NCBI GenBank assembly: GCA_013373595.1
Contig: JABXHO010000038.1
Location: 1 to 64,000, forward strand
DNA from: Flavobacteriales bacterium
GTDB lineage: Bacteria; Bacteroidota; Bacteroidia; Flavobacteriales_D; Crocinitomicaceae
Direction: 5' to 3'
Length of the DNA stretch: 64,000 nucleotides
Position numbers and translations under genes: made by a program. The notes beneath the pieces are model-generated. The model was not told the origin of the DNA. It saw only the letters and a program-made list of their open reading frames with translations, and did no database searches. Shown in pieces: positions 14,601 through 19,565 of this stretch (position 1 is the first letter of the stretch; the number at the start of each line of letters is the position of its first letter).

Positions 14601-14632
14601 TTAGTACTATTCCAAAACTCCTCGTATCTTTG
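14601..14632 (+). promoter_or_regulatory. Predicted promoter of the B12 operon
   Basis: TTAG (14601-14604), 20 nt spacer, then TATCTTTG (14625-14632), a full match to TAnnTTTG. Transcription would start near 14636, two bases before the P1 strand of the cobalamin aptamer, so the RNA begins almost exactly with the riboswitch. Confidence 0.65.
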
Positions 14633-14637
14633 CCCCA

Positions 14638-14800
14638 ACTTCAGGTGCCATCTTTGATGGATTAAAAAGGAATCTGGTGAGAATCCAGAACTGTATCTGC
14701 AGCTGTAAGCGTTTTACGCTGAAATATCAACGTCACTGTTCGTGATCAACGAATGGGAAGGCAATTTCAGTATGGCGCGAGTCAGAATACTTGCCGAAGT
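14638..14800 (+). ncRNA. Cobalamin (B12) riboswitch aptamer
   Basis: All conserved blocks of the cobalamin aptamer can be read in order: AGGTGCC (14643-14649), AAAAAGGAATCTGGTGAGA followed by ATCCAGAACTGT (about 14664-14693), TGCAGCTGTAAGC (14698-14710), and the B12-box-like GTCAGAATACTTGCC (14781-14795). P1 closes with ACTTC (14638-14642) against GAAGT (14796-14800). The downstream gene start is 118 nt past the aptamer. Known biology: B12 binding represses import genes by blocking translation or ending transcription; which one applies here is not clear from the sequence. Confidence 0.93.
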
Positions 14801-14917
14801 AAATAGTATTGAAGACTTCAGATTAAAGTCCGAGATTGGTGTCCACACATTGTGTGCGTCTTTTCGATTTTCAACTGATCTTCTTCATTTAATTTTTTAA
14901 CCCTTAACAGGAAAGTT
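14801..14917 (+). promoter_or_regulatory. Riboswitch expression platform / 5' leader
   Basis: Non-coding leader between the aptamer and the DUF4465 gene. It repeats the P1 5' strand as ACTTCAG (14815-14821, identical to 14638-14644), has a short hairpin GACTT/AAGTC (from 14814 region) and a CACAC-ATT-GTGTG hairpin (about 14844-14856). No intrinsic terminator with a T-run is seen, so control of translation seems more likely than termination. The start codon region reads AACAGGAAAGTTATG. Confidence 0.5.
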
Positions 14918-15895
14918 ATGAAGAAAATCTACACTTTGGTAGCAGCGTTTGCAGTCGCTGGAACAATTACTGCTCAAACCACAATTGATTTTGAAAACCA
15001 TCCATTAGCCGGAGCGGAAACGCACGATAACGGAAACGATGGAGTGGGAGCGTTTGATTTTGGAGGGACAACCTTCGATTACAATTACAACGCTGCTGGA
15101 AGTTATTTCAGTGGATTTGCGATTTCAAATCACACGGATGTGACAACAGCTGGATTCACGAATCAGTACAGTGCATATCCAGGAAGCGGAGCGGATGCAT
15201 CTTCCAATTTTGCCATCTTCTACGATTTCTACAACGGTGGAATCAATACAAATGATGCCGCGGTAAGAATTGACAGTTTTGAGTTAACAAATACAACCTA
15301 TGCCTATCTTTCGATGAGAGACGGTGATGGATACGGAAAGCAGTTTGGTTCGATTTACGATGCGGATGGATTGGAAGACGGAACGAACGGAGAAGATTTC
15401 TTCATGGTAACCATTTATGCTGAAAACTTTGACCAGACGGAAATTGATTCAGTTGAATTTTACTTGGCAGATTACCGTTTCACGGATAACACAATGGATT
15501 ACATTGTAGATGATTGGAACACGATCGACCTTACAGGATTCGGATTTGACGTTTCAACCATTCGGTTTGCCTTTGCTTCGTCCGATGTGAACTCGTGGGG
15601 AATCAAAACACCAGCGTACATTGCAATAGACAACGTTTCGACGCAATCCGTAAGTGGAGTGAAAACGCTGTTGGCAGACAATTTCTCAATGTATCCAAAC
15701 CCAGCTGTTGACGTGGTGAACGTAACTGGTGGAAATGGAACAATTGAAGTACGTAACGCTATGGGACAGTTGATCTCGACAAGCGCGCACAACACAAACA
15801 GTCAAATTGACGTTAGCAAATTTCAAAGTGGTGTTTATTTCATCACCTTAAAAGATGACAACGGTGTTCGGACGCAACAATTTGTGAAACAATAA
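14918..15895 (+). CDS. DUF4465 protein with T9SS type A tail (BtuH-like B12 surface binder)
   Basis: The 325-aa product has signal peptide MKKIYTLVAAFAVAGTITAQ, a DUF4465 domain (about residues 25-245; marker segments FSGFAISNHTDVTTAGF, NQYSAYPGSG, SFELTNTTYAYLSM, VEFYLADYRF and NSWGIKTPAYIAIDNV), and a T9SS type A sorting domain (about 255-325, NFSMYPNPAVDVVNVTGGNG ... SGVYFITLK ... FVKQ). In Bacteroides the B12-binding surface protein BtuH is, to my knowledge, of the DUF4465 type but lipid anchored. First gene after the cobalamin riboswitch, so a role in capturing cobalamin at the surface is a strong inference. A terminator-like hairpin follows its stop. Confidence 0.85.
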   Translation: MKKIYTLVAAFAVAGTITAQTTIDFENHPLAGAETHDNGNDGVGAFDFGGTTFDYNYNAAGSYFSGFAISNHTDVTTAGFTNQYSAYPGSGADASSNFAIFYDFYNGGINTNDAAVRIDSFELTNTTYAYLSMRDGDGYGKQFGSIYDADGLEDGTNGEDFFMVTIYAENFDQTEIDSVEFYLADYRFTDNTMDYIVDDWNTIDLTGFGFDVSTIRFAFASSDVNSWGIKTPAYIAIDNVSTQSVSGVKTLLADNFSMYPNPAVDVVNVTGGNGTIEVRNAMGQLISTSAHNTNSQIDVSKFQSGVYFITLKDDNGVRTQQFVKQ

Positions 15896-15902
15896 TGAAA
15901 TC

Positions 15903-15927
15903 GGGGATGTTATTGCATCCCCTTTTT
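15903..15927 (+). terminator. Terminator-like hairpin abutting the BtuB-like start codon
   Basis: Perfect 7-bp stem GGGGATG (15903-15909) and CATCCCC (15916-15922), 6-nt loop, then T5 (15923-15927). The next bases are the ATG at 15928. It lies 8 nt after the DUF4465 stop. It probably lowers expression of the receptor relative to the DUF4465 protein by partial termination. Confidence 0.75.
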
Positions 15928-17952
15928 ATGCGCTCTATTCTTCTCATATCGTTTTTTTACTGCTTCCAAGCTTTGGGACAGGACACGACTGCCGTCAAAA
16001 GTGACTCAATTCCAATCCTGAATTTGGTATCGGTAGATGTTATTATGCCTCCACGATTAAGAAGGGTACTTCCACGGAACTCCATAATTGGGAAGCAACA
16101 AATTGATGAAATTCAAGCGAATGATGTGGGCGAAATCCTACAGAAAGTACAAGGCGTCAATTTGAAATCTTACGGAGGATTGGGAGGACTCAAAACGATT
16201 TCTGTGAGAAGCTTGGGAAGTCAACATTCAGCGATTTCCATCGATGGTTTTTCCATTCAAAACAGCCAAACTGGACAGGTCAATTTAGCGCAAATTCAAA
16301 CAAACAATTTGCAATCAATTTCGATTGGAGTAGGAGAGTACGCGGGCTATCTTATTCCTGTTTCATCGCAGATTGCAGGAAATAACGTATCGCTGCAAAC
16401 CTTCGAGATGACATTTCCGAATTATGATGATACGCTTCAAATTCGGTCGAACATTCGATATGGATCATTTGTTCAAGTGAGCGGGTATGCATCGGCAAAA
16501 GTCAAGATCAAAAATGGTTTTGTGAGTGGATTTGGAAATTACCGTACGTCAAATGGTTTGTACCCTTTTGATATTCAAAATGGAGCTCAAAATTACACAG
16601 GAGTACGAAGTAACAATGATTATCAAGATCAGTACTTCGGAGGAGTGTTGGGGTATCGTTTCGGACGAGATGCCATGATGCGTATATCGTATAAACAATC
16701 GTCGATCGATCAAGGTTTGCCCGGAGCAATTATTTTGTACAATCATCACGCAGACGAGCGATTATCGACCAATGACAACCTGCTGAATGCCGATTTTCGC
16801 TTTCGAATTACAGAAGGGATTCATGCACGAGCATACGCCAATGGGAATGTCAATTCCATGCGTTATTTAGATCCAACTTACTTCAACAGTGCCGGTTTTG
16901 TTGATGTTACATACGACAATCGCAATGCGAATGTAGGTATCGTTGCAGATGGTCACATGGTGAAGAACGGTGCTCACAATTACAAAAGAGCGATGTATTT
17001 CGGTGTTGAAGGCGGAGTAAGTGATTTGTCGAGCTCTGACAGTCTTTTTTCTTCTCCCATTCGTAAACAAGTTTCAGCCATTTTAGGAGCGAGACTTATG
17101 TTTAAATGGATGAGATTTCGAGGACACCTCTCTACACAATATGTGAATGAATCCAACCGTACTTCAGATGATGGGAAAGATGTTTTTGGTTTGAACCCGT
17201 ATGTAAGCTTGGAGTCTAAAGAAATTGGGAAAAAGAGTATTCGCCATCGTATCTGGTATCGAAATTCACTACGTGTTCCTAGTTTCAACGAATTGTATTA
17301 CAATAACATTGGTAACAACGAGTTGAATCCCGAAAAGGCCAACCAATTTGGTTATGATATCAATTTGATTCCATTTCAGAAGCAACAGCATGAGGTATAT
17401 GTCAAATTGGGCACGTATTTTAATCGTGTAACCGATAAAATTGTTGCAATTCCTACTCAAAACTTGTTTACATGGTCTATTCAAAATGTGGGAATCGTCC
17501 ACGCGTACGGCGCTGAAATTAGTGTAGGAACGCATGTTGTTTTCGGCAAAGAAGATCGTTGGAAGTTGAACGGTTTGGGGAATTATTCGTTCCAGCGATC
17601 AATGAACATGACCGATCCAAATCATTCTTCGTACGGACATCAAATTGCCTATATACCGATGCATACGGGGAATTTTGATCTTTCTTTGAGCTACAAGAAA
17701 CTCGGTTTAAAAACAACAAATTATTTGGTTTCAAAGCGTTACTCGCTGAATGAAAACACGGCTTCGAATGAAGTGGCTGGATTCTTAGTGACAGATTTCA
17801 GTGTTTTCTATTCCTTCGAACGATGGAAAAAGCAATCCATTCGTTTTCAATTTCAAGTGAAGAATGCGTTCAACAAATCGTATTCGTATATTCGTTCTTT
17901 CATCATGCCTGGAAGAAATTACTTAATATCCATTCAATATGCGCTTAATTAG
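15928..17952 (+). CDS. btuB: BtuB-like TonB-dependent cobalamin receptor
   Basis: Outer-membrane receptor of 674 aa, predicted to import cobalamin. Signal peptide MRSILLISFFYCFQALGQ, plug domain (about residues 45-165; DEIQANDVGEILQKVQGVNL, then SVRSLGSQHSAISIDGFSIQ), and barrel ending YLISIQYALN. No carboxypeptidase-like N-terminal domain is present. I chose ATG 15928 instead of one at 15895: the longer form overlaps the DUF4465 stop (TAATG) and would place the terminator hairpin inside the ORF and bury the signal peptide. Riboswitch control and the BtuG-like neighbour give the B12 assignment; sequence alone shows only the TonB-receptor family. Confidence 0.85.
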   Translation: MRSILLISFFYCFQALGQDTTAVKSDSIPILNLVSVDVIMPPRLRRVLPRNSIIGKQQIDEIQANDVGEILQKVQGVNLKSYGGLGGLKTISVRSLGSQHSAISIDGFSIQNSQTGQVNLAQIQTNNLQSISIGVGEYAGYLIPVSSQIAGNNVSLQTFEMTFPNYDDTLQIRSNIRYGSFVQVSGYASAKVKIKNGFVSGFGNYRTSNGLYPFDIQNGAQNYTGVRSNNDYQDQYFGGVLGYRFGRDAMMRISYKQSSIDQGLPGAIILYNHHADERLSTNDNLLNADFRFRITEGIHARAYANGNVNSMRYLDPTYFNSAGFVDVTYDNRNANVGIVADGHMVKNGAHNYKRAMYFGVEGGVSDLSSSDSLFSSPIRKQVSAILGARLMFKWMRFRGHLSTQYVNESNRTSDDGKDVFGLNPYVSLESKEIGKKSIRHRIWYRNSLRVPSFNELYYNNIGNNELNPEKANQFGYDINLIPFQKQQHEVYVKLGTYFNRVTDKIVAIPTQNLFTWSIQNVGIVHAYGAEISVGTHVVFGKEDRWKLNGLGNYSFQRSMNMTDPNHSSYGHQIAYIPMHTGNFDLSLSYKKLGLKTTNYLVSKRYSLNENTASNEVAGFLVTDFSVFYSFERWKKQSIRFQFQVKNAFNKSYSYIRSFIMPGRNYLISIQYALN

Positions 17953-18991
17953 TTCTATTCTACTTCTTACTCTTCTTTTTTCATCGTGTAAAAAGGATGA
18001 TCCGACAACTTCGGGGAATGTTCAGTTATCTAACGGGATGATGGTCTTGTGTGAAGGGTTGTTTCAACAGAATAACTCATCCATTTCCTATGTGAATTTC
18101 AATAATGGAGTGGTCATTAATGATTTCTTTTTCAAAACATCAGAGCGCGTTTTGGGAGATACAGGGAACGATTTACAACGATACGGTGGAAAGATTTATG
18201 CTGTTGTGAATGGATCGAGTACAATCGAAGTGATTTCGGGCGTAACGGGGATTTCAATCAAGCAAATTCCAATGGTGGAAGGTGGAGTTCCGAAACAACC
18301 ACGCTCAATGGCATTTTATCAAGATAAAATTTTGGTCTCCTGCTACGATGGCTATGTGGATGTGATCGACACGACTTCACTCGAAGTACAACAACGAATT
18401 TTGGTCGGAAGTAATCCAGAAGGATTGGCTGTGTCGAATGATTATTTATACGTTGCAAATTCGGGCGGATTAAACTTCCCCAATGTCGATTCTACCGTTT
18501 CCGTAGTGAATTTAACGACCTTTTCTGAAGAGTTGAAAGTAACTGTGGGTAAGAATCCATCGGATGTTGAAGTGGATGCTGCGGGAGATATTTACGTGAT
18601 TACGCGAGGAGATTACGCAAGTATTCCGTCACGATTAAATAAAATCAACCCGAACACGTATCAAGTGACGCACTTTTCGTTTGATGCATCGAGTATCACG
18701 CGTATGAACGGGAATTTTCTAATTGGCTATGCTGACTTTGCGACTGGAGATAGCCAGGTTGGTTTGTTCGATCCCGTGGGAGATGTGTTAACAGCAACGA
18801 CATACCTTGATGTAAGTTCGGTGCAAAACCTATACGGGATCACATATAACTCAGCATTGGACAAAATTTATATTTGCGATGCGAAAGATTTCGTAACCAC
18901 AGGTGATGTTTTTGAGTTTGATGGTTCTGGTGCATTTTTGACCAGTTATCATGTAGGACTTAACCCTTCAAAAGTGGTTTTTTATGAGTGA
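17939..18991 (+). CDS. BtuG-like beta-propeller surface lipoprotein
   Basis: The 350-aa product starts with a lipoprotein signal (ISSILLLTLLFSSCKKDD, lipid Cys at about residue 17) followed by a YncE/DUF5074-type beta-propeller: repeated blades such as GGKIYAVVNGSSTIEVIS, YQDKILVSCYDGYVDVID, SNDYLYVANSGG and AAGDIYVITRGDY. In Bacteroides, BtuG is a seven-bladed propeller lipoprotein that caps BtuB and binds B12 with extreme affinity. Same fold, same lipid anchor and position right after btuB (14-nt overlap) make this a BtuG equivalent; direct B12 binding is inferred. Confidence 0.82.
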   Translation: MRLISSILLLTLLFSSCKKDDPTTSGNVQLSNGMMVLCEGLFQQNNSSISYVNFNNGVVINDFFFKTSERVLGDTGNDLQRYGGKIYAVVNGSSTIEVISGVTGISIKQIPMVEGGVPKQPRSMAFYQDKILVSCYDGYVDVIDTTSLEVQQRILVGSNPEGLAVSNDYLYVANSGGLNFPNVDSTVSVVNLTTFSEELKVTVGKNPSDVEVDAAGDIYVITRGDYASIPSRLNKINPNTYQVTHFSFDASSITRMNGNFLIGYADFATGDSQVGLFDPVGDVLTATTYLDVSSVQNLYGITYNSALDKIYICDAKDFVTTGDVFEFDGSGAFLTSYHVGLNPSKVVFYE

Positions 18992-19565
18992 TTTTTTATC
19001 AAGCTCTTTCTGGAATCAGCGTTATGTTGATGGTTCAACTGGTTGGGATTTAGGAAAGGTTTCTCCGCCGATCAAGGCGTATATTGATCAATTGGAGAAC
19101 AAAGAGCTGAAAATTCTGATTCCTGGGGCAGGGAATGGACACGAAGCAGCGTATCTTCATTCATGTGGCTTCACAGACGTTCATGTGTTGGATTTTGCCC
19201 CATTGGCCATTGAATCCTTCTTGAAAGAAAATCCAACATTTCCTTCAGAGCACACACACGCTGTTAACTTCTTTGAATTTGAAGGAACCTTTGATTTGAT
19301 TTTGGAGCAAACGTTATTCTGTGCGATTGACCCTTCCTTACGTTCAAGCTATGCTGAGCAAGCTAGTTCCTTACTGCGTAATGGTGGTAAATTGGTAGGC
19401 GTTTTATTCAACCGAGAATTTGAATCAGGTCCTCCTTTTGGCGGAAATAAAATGGAATATGTGAAGACCTTTGCACCTCACTTTTCTTCAGTATCCATGA
19501 AAGAATGCTACAATTCGATTGAACCAAGAATGGGTACGGAGCTCTTTATTCTGTTAGAGAAATAG
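18984..19565 (+). CDS. TPMT-family SAM-dependent methyltransferase
   Basis: Cytoplasmic class I methyltransferase of 193 aa of the thiopurine S-methyltransferase type. Markers are FWNQRYVDGSTGWDLGKVSP near the N-terminus, the SAM-binding ILIPGAGNGHEAAYLHSCG (about residues 42-60), and VHVLDFAPLAIESF. Its start overlaps the BtuG-like gene by 8 nt, so it is translated from the B12 operon. No cobalamin-related function is known to me for this family; it may methylate a small thiol or selenium compound, and linkage to B12 (SAM regeneration by MetH) is speculation. Confidence 0.82.
   Translation: MSDFLSSSFWNQRYVDGSTGWDLGKVSPPIKAYIDQLENKELKILIPGAGNGHEAAYLHSCGFTDVHVLDFAPLAIESFLKENPTFPSEHTHAVNFFEFEGTFDLILEQTLFCAIDPSLRSSYAEQASSLLRNGGKLVGVLFNREFESGPPFGGNKMEYVKTFAPHFSSVSMKECYNSIEPRMGTELFILLEK

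Follow-up and report, generated by a model that had tools for sequence, protein, structure and literature searches.

A riboswitch-preceded B12-acquisition locus with a T9SS-tailed DUF4465 protein as its predicted first product in a Crocinitomicaceae bacterium

Vitamin B12 in water is a scarce public good that most free-living Bacteroidota have to scavenge, and functional work on B12 catchers is based on the lipoproteins of gut Bacteroides. The locus described here raises the question of how such a catcher arrives at the surface in bacteria beyond the gut, where it seems to do so via the type IX secretion system (T9SS). The locus lies in a window of 64,000 nucleotides (the whole stretch of DNA that was analysed) from a member of the Crocinitomicaceae and consists of a cobalamin riboswitch followed, all on the plus strand, by a gene for a DUF4465 protein with a T9SS type A tail, btuB, btuG, and a TPMT-like gene (Table 1). 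Each part of this cluster, as it had been named in the original prediction, found its match in RF00174, Pfam, NCBIfam, or the PDB, and riboswitch, domains, tail, and gene order together support the claim of a B12-riboswitch acquisition locus with a T9SS-tailed surface protein as its first product. The locus is a known type of B12-acquisition operon in a T9SS-using version; this version has been counted in the literature, but we found no description of it as a system in open-access papers, and no open-access paper on T9SS together with cobalamin riboswitches beyond one transcriptome map. Very probably, the locus serves ordinary B12 scavenging with a catcher delivered by the T9SS, for which we infer B12 binding, export, hand-over of the ligand, and a role of an intergenic hairpin in stoichiometry.

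Table 1. Features of the B12 locus in the window and first-slot proteins of DUF4465-free loci
Feature	Position	Strand	Evidence or context
Cobalamin riboswitch aptamer, model positions 1-189 (full length)	14625..14812	+	RF00174, 91.1 bits, E 3e-21
Probable expression platform: conserved GAAGACTTCAGATTAAAGTC element and long hairpin, then T-rich tract	14813..14900	+	inferred
BtuJ-type (DUF4465) predicted B12-binding protein with T9SS tail, 325 aa	14918..15895	+	Pfam, NCBIfam, AF2 model, fold search
Sec signal, about residues 1-20	first protein	+	read from sequence; lipobox absent
DUF4465 domain, about residues 22-244	14981-15649	+	PF14717, 156.3 bits (cut-off 25), E 1.4e-45
T9SS type A tail, residues 258-325	15689-15892	+	TIGR04183, 59.3 bits (cut-off 23), E 2.7e-16; PF18962, 4e-14
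Terminator-like hairpin GGGGATGTTATTGCATCCCC and TTTTT between catcher and btuB	15903..15927	+	junction survey
BtuB-type TonB-dependent B12 receptor	15928..17952 (ORF opens 15895)	+	BtuB1 8blw_A, E 8e-71
BtuG-type beta-propeller surface lipoprotein	17939..18991	+	8blw_B, E 2.5e-61; 8ptf, 8ptd; DUF5074
TPMT-like methyltransferase, cytoplasmic	18984..19565	+	PF05724, 89.7 bits, E 2.7e-25
DUF4465-free first-slot proteins	L212:4290-5825, L217:12383-13909, L210:7558-8847, L208:9072-10448		3' of riboswitch

The host is best explained as a free-living, freshwater-type, Fluviicola-related member of the Crocinitomicaceae that is auxotrophic for B12. Its genome encodes MetH, methylmalonyl-CoA mutase, IcmF, and a B12-binding radical SAM protein as B12-using proteins, and only one TP_methylase; therefore, the de novo corrin ring pathway is absent. 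Judged by its gene content, the host is a B12 user that depends on import and has a T9SS, the presence of which was assessed by searching for the component SprA (full length, 2376.7 bits). The genome has one FecCD-type ABC importer, together with a Peripla_BP_2 periplasmic binding protein, which could serve siderophores instead.

The first protein combines a C-terminal TIGR04183/PF18962 match with an N-terminal Sec signal, as T9SS type A cargo does, and is predicted to be exported to the surface by this route. The original prediction that a DUF4465 domain bears the type A tail was borne out by both models, and it was also right in taking the DUF4465 proteins of gut Bacteroides for lipoproteins (L108, L109). 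Its further claim, that the B12 catcher comes to the surface differently here than in gut Bacteroides, is correct as a statement, but the arrangement is neither rare nor new: in the window's order, 75 of the 79 DUF4465 proteins that were inspected bear the tail, and among 824 family members in the literature, 229 have IPR026444 (T9SS) and 275 are lipoproteins, with zero overlap (PMC12751083). The four tail-less proteins of the order are lipoproteins, all from genus g14 (L086, L092, L094, and L098), and SprA is still found in those genomes; therefore, T9SS export is replaceable. Elsewhere in the class, the tail-less proteins L108, L109, L112, and L113 are lipoproteins, and L107, L110, and L111 are tailed. 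In a later paper of the same group, the non-lipoprotein members are called periplasmic (PMC13398666); since nearly all DUF4465 proteins of the window's order are T9SS-tailed, this term would mislead there.

The catcher might also be a released scavenger, its tail cut and the binder set free in the medium or on vesicles in the manner of a protein siderophore. T9SS type A tails can end in anchoring or in release, and a surplus production of the catcher brought about by the hairpin (see below) would fit shedding; however, most type A proteins studied so far are attached to lipopolysaccharide, and in open water a shed binder would be lost unless it is bound to vesicles. With BtuJ1 and BtuJ2, which bring B12 to cells on extracellular vesicles, as a precedent (PMC12751083), we regard release as possible, if rather unlikely.

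In our model of T9SS-delivered scavenging, scarcity of cobalamin would lead the riboswitch to permit expression of the operon. The BtuJ-type protein would cross the inner membrane by Sec, its type A tail would be recognised for type IX export, and the exported protein, either anchored on the surface or freed after cleavage of the tail, would capture cobamides there and pass them to the lipoprotein BtuG, which forms a lid over BtuB on the surface; BtuB would then import them with TonB. The hairpin 5' of btuB would end part of the transcripts and thereby provide many catchers per transporter.

The cobalamin model RF00174, run on the region 5' of the first gene, returned a full-length match, as had been predicted, and the genome has only two such riboswitches, this one included. 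In 39 of 41 genomes of the order searched, a riboswitch lies on the same strand 39 to 160 nt 5' of the DUF4465 start. The GAAGACTTCAGATTAAAGTC segment with its hairpin is kept in 12 loci of the same genus, with z-scores of −0.3 to −3.4 (window, −1.2); no covariation was detected for the hairpin of this platform, for which RNAalifold returns merely a 5-bp stem.

Gene overlaps had been put forward as a sign of an operon. Those of btuB with btuG (14 nt) and of btuG with the TPMT-like gene (8 nt) are real, but the 1-nt overlap of the DUF4465 gene with btuB is probably not, because the most likely start codon of btuB is the ATG of Met12 in its open reading frame, with a predicted signal peptide from MRSILLISFF onward, and the hairpin lies in between. 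Each of the 12 loci from the window's genus has a terminator-like hairpin with a T-run at this junction, although their stems are unrelated in sequence; overall, such a hairpin is found in 27 of 86 loci, compared to 1.8 expected from shuffles. The hairpin is probably a leaky terminator that would give a high ratio of catcher to transporter; alternatively, it could influence the translation of btuB instead of termination. A high catcher ratio fits the finding that, among the proteins of the B12 loci of Bacteroides thetaiotaomicron, Bt1491 (BtuJ1) is likely present in the largest amount (PMC10404256). If the hairpin were a full terminator, the riboswitch would govern the first gene alone and btuB, btuG, and the TPMT-like gene would have a promoter of their own. 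The strength of the hairpin and the T5 run just 3' of the DUF4465 stop codon speak for such an arrangement, as do internal promoters known from B12 operons of B. thetaiotaomicron (PMC12751083), but the gap of about 30 nt lacks room for a promoter, nothing promoter-like was seen in it (with the restriction that Bacteroidota promoters differ from the pattern sought), and the gene order is conserved throughout the order, all of which makes a separate promoter improbable. The leaky-terminator reading makes the junction hairpin a testable attenuator that would set the catcher dose. The hairpin in the same-genus loci is new here, as is the c2 family beside T9SS-tailed DUF4465 proteins that is described below.

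The receptor and the lid lipoprotein of the BtuB1-BtuG1 complex of B. thetaiotaomicron (8BLW; PMC10404256) are the best PDB matches of the second and third window proteins; BtuB aligns over its whole length (window residues 18-680 with BtuB1 residues 10-677), and the BtuB equivalog TIGR01779 is matched with a score under its cut-off. BtuG has the propeller and a lipobox, FSSC, followed by KKDD, in line with the lipoprotein export signal C-X-K-(D/E)2 (PMC5080379). BtuG1 of B. thetaiotaomicron carries a fused BtuH domain, whereas the window BtuG is a propeller only. The predicted TPMT methyltransferase holds at the level of PF05724, but the thiopurine equivalog TIGR03840 scores 50.5 bits against a cut-off of 223; by these profiles, the enzyme is TPMT-like in superfamily only. 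About 15 related loci have a TPMT-like gene as the last gene of the operon, in several cases 3' of c2, and there is no evidence for or against a role in B12 chemistry.

Does the first protein bind B12? The Pfam search found DUF4465 in it, as expected, but the label "DUF4465-type BtuH" of the original prediction was wrong, as DUF4465 proteins bear the name BtuJ (PMC12751083). BtuH is ruled out as the identity of the domain: the hhalign comparison of BtuH with DUF4465 gave an E value of 0.71, and no BtuH chain is among the 50 fold matches listed. The AF2 model of the domain (pLDDT 96.3) has an augmented beta-jellyroll fold and matched B12-bound structures, namely of BtuJ1 (9qpm, 9fct), BtuJ2 (9i2l), and D5EK51 (9hmu; E 3e-18, TM 0.80), with TM values of 0.79 to 0.80 for 9fct and 0.75 to 0.80 for 9hmu, 9qpm, and 9fct together. 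In the alignment with BtuJ1, the tyrosines Y146 (DE-loop) and Y245 (HI-loop) are kept as TNTTY and KTPAY, the latter in agreement with the family pattern (N)TPAY of the HI-loop. That the protein has a different ligand, such as a glycan, and shares just the jelly-roll fold with carbohydrate binders is highly improbable: weak similarity of its fold to carbohydrate-binding modules (E values of about 1e-3 or poorer) and the replacement of the third halo tyrosine (Y97 of BtuJ1) by Phe stand against matches to B12-bound DUF4465 structures at E 1e-15 to 1e-18, a cobalamin riboswitch directly 5' of the gene, and reported B12 binding by 8 of 8 family members, that is, six further proteins, all positive, plus BtuJ1 and BtuJ2 (PMC13398666).

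One of the proteins that bind B12 is Fluta (F2I9N3) of Fluviicola taffensis (PMC13398666), which belongs to the same bacterial family as the window organism. The locus L048 encodes the sole DUF4465 protein of its genome (G106), with signal peptide, domain, and T9SS tail laid out as in the window, and is presumably the gene of Fluta. Hence, a protein of the window's type has very likely already been shown to bind B12, and binding by the window protein appears well supported by family data. The two organisms differ in genus (g6 for F. taffensis and g1 for the window, by a computed grouping), and the F. taffensis operon retains c2, which the window operon lacks. BtuJ1 and BtuJ2 of B. thetaiotaomicron (IPR027828; PMC12751083) are like the window protein in domain family, fold (TM about 0.8 to BtuJ1), and riboswitch, and BtuB and BtuG are present in both loci. 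Those two are lipoproteins, whereas the window protein lacks a lipobox and combines its Sec signal with a T9SS type A tail. BtuH2 of B. thetaiotaomicron (7BIZ; PMC8941943) is alike as a surface B12 catcher beside BtuBG, but its B12-binding fold differs and was not matched by the window DUF4465 domain. One locus of the collection (L046:3656-5290) has a tandem DUF4465 duplication inside one T9SS-tailed protein.

The likeness to BtuH, seen in fold and profile, belongs to another protein in the operons of relatives and not to DUF4465. In 60 DUF4465 loci, a second T9SS-tailed protein of about 315 to 350 aa, c2, is encoded 3' of btuG or of the DUF4465 gene. The c2 family was seen in the sets L037-L106 and L121-L200, for example at L080:4295-5260 (minus strand) and L048:12599-13579 (plus strand). 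The 60 proteins form one homologous group with a highly conserved domain of about 220 residues that, apart from the tail, has no sequence match in Pfam, NCBIfam, or the PDB, which rules out a described family; a diverged DUF4465 was ruled out as well (hhalign E 0.27). The three g14 loci that have c2 (L086, L092, and L098) keep the T9SS tail on c2 while their DUF4465 protein is a lipoprotein. A scan of 84,980 species revealed at least 546 relatives of c2, the best 80 of which belong to Bacteroidota, Chlorobiota, Verrucomicrobiota, and Planctomycetota. A riboswitch model built for this analysis places a same-strand cobalamin riboswitch at 62 of these 80 loci; Rfam adds a Planctomycetota locus, L175, with the riboswitch directly 5' of c2 and confirms L157, L185, and L147. 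Among 299 genomes of the order, c2 is present in 91 of the 95 with DUF4465 and in 15 of the 204 without, counts that ignore kinship.

The c2 model (pLDDT 93.9) has as its top fold match the BtuG1 chain that holds the BtuH domain and as its next match BtuH2, at E values of 8e-4 and 2e-3 and TM values of merely 0.42 to 0.46. Profile comparison with BtuH gave an E value of 3e-4 and a score of 34.4, compared to at most 23.0 in 100 column-shuffled controls, and nothing was found with the profiles of BtuG, BtuB, TPMT, and DUF4465; a search of a viral fold library gave nothing useful. Profile and model together make it probable that c2 is distantly related to the domain with which BtuH binds B12, of which it would be a compact form. 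We consider it somewhat more probable than not that c2 is indeed a compact B12 binder of the BtuH type, within a two-catcher, T9SS-exported system whose first slot is swappable among DUF4465, DUF4430, and unnamed domains. This is the lead worth following; c2 and the alternative first-slot proteins make up a concrete candidate list for new B12-binding folds. In two loci, DUF4465, c2, and one T9SS tail are fused in a single protein (L154:6266-7924, assigned by Pfam, and L170:6284, by length and context).

In the window operon, the TPMT-like gene occupies the site that c2 and TPMT have in sister species and c2 has in most relatives. The genome does encode one c2 (C146:9085-10065, L202), a divergent, T9SS-tailed copy away from B12 genes, with no riboswitch found 5' of it; its neighbours are an M23 peptidase gene and alaS. 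In a quick tree, a 98% branch separates this copy, together with other solitary ones, from the operonic c2 genes of its own genus, which rules out that the operonic c2 was merely relocated; the operonic c2 was therefore lost and a different c2 retained.

The c2-only genomes examined mostly have riboswitch-btuB-btuG-c2 operons with another T9SS protein in first place. In genomes of the order without DUF4465, the first slot is taken by a T9SS-tailed protein of about 430 to 515 aa, the tail of which alone matches Pfam; the four such proteins in Table 1 are candidates for further B12 binders. In gut or rumen Bacteroidales, a protein with DUF4430, a domain that also occurs in the C-terminal region of transcobalamin, and a T9SS tail fills the first slot and is followed by c2 and btuG (L162:5328-6950 and L174:5739-6950). 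Three further first-slot T9SS-tailed proteins of 422 to 433 aa (L146:2596, L149:4486, and L192:5640) match the BtuG profile weakly; in that of L149, Pfam sees the tail alone.

The second cobalamin riboswitch of the genome (G000:C122:1250-1430, minus strand, L206; 101 bits) lies 5' of a gene for a short PAS protein and looks, from its sequence setting, like B12 control of a sensor-like gene. The PAS protein is LOV-like in appearance and has the motif NPRFLQG, in which Pro replaces the flavin-binding Cys of NCRFLQ.
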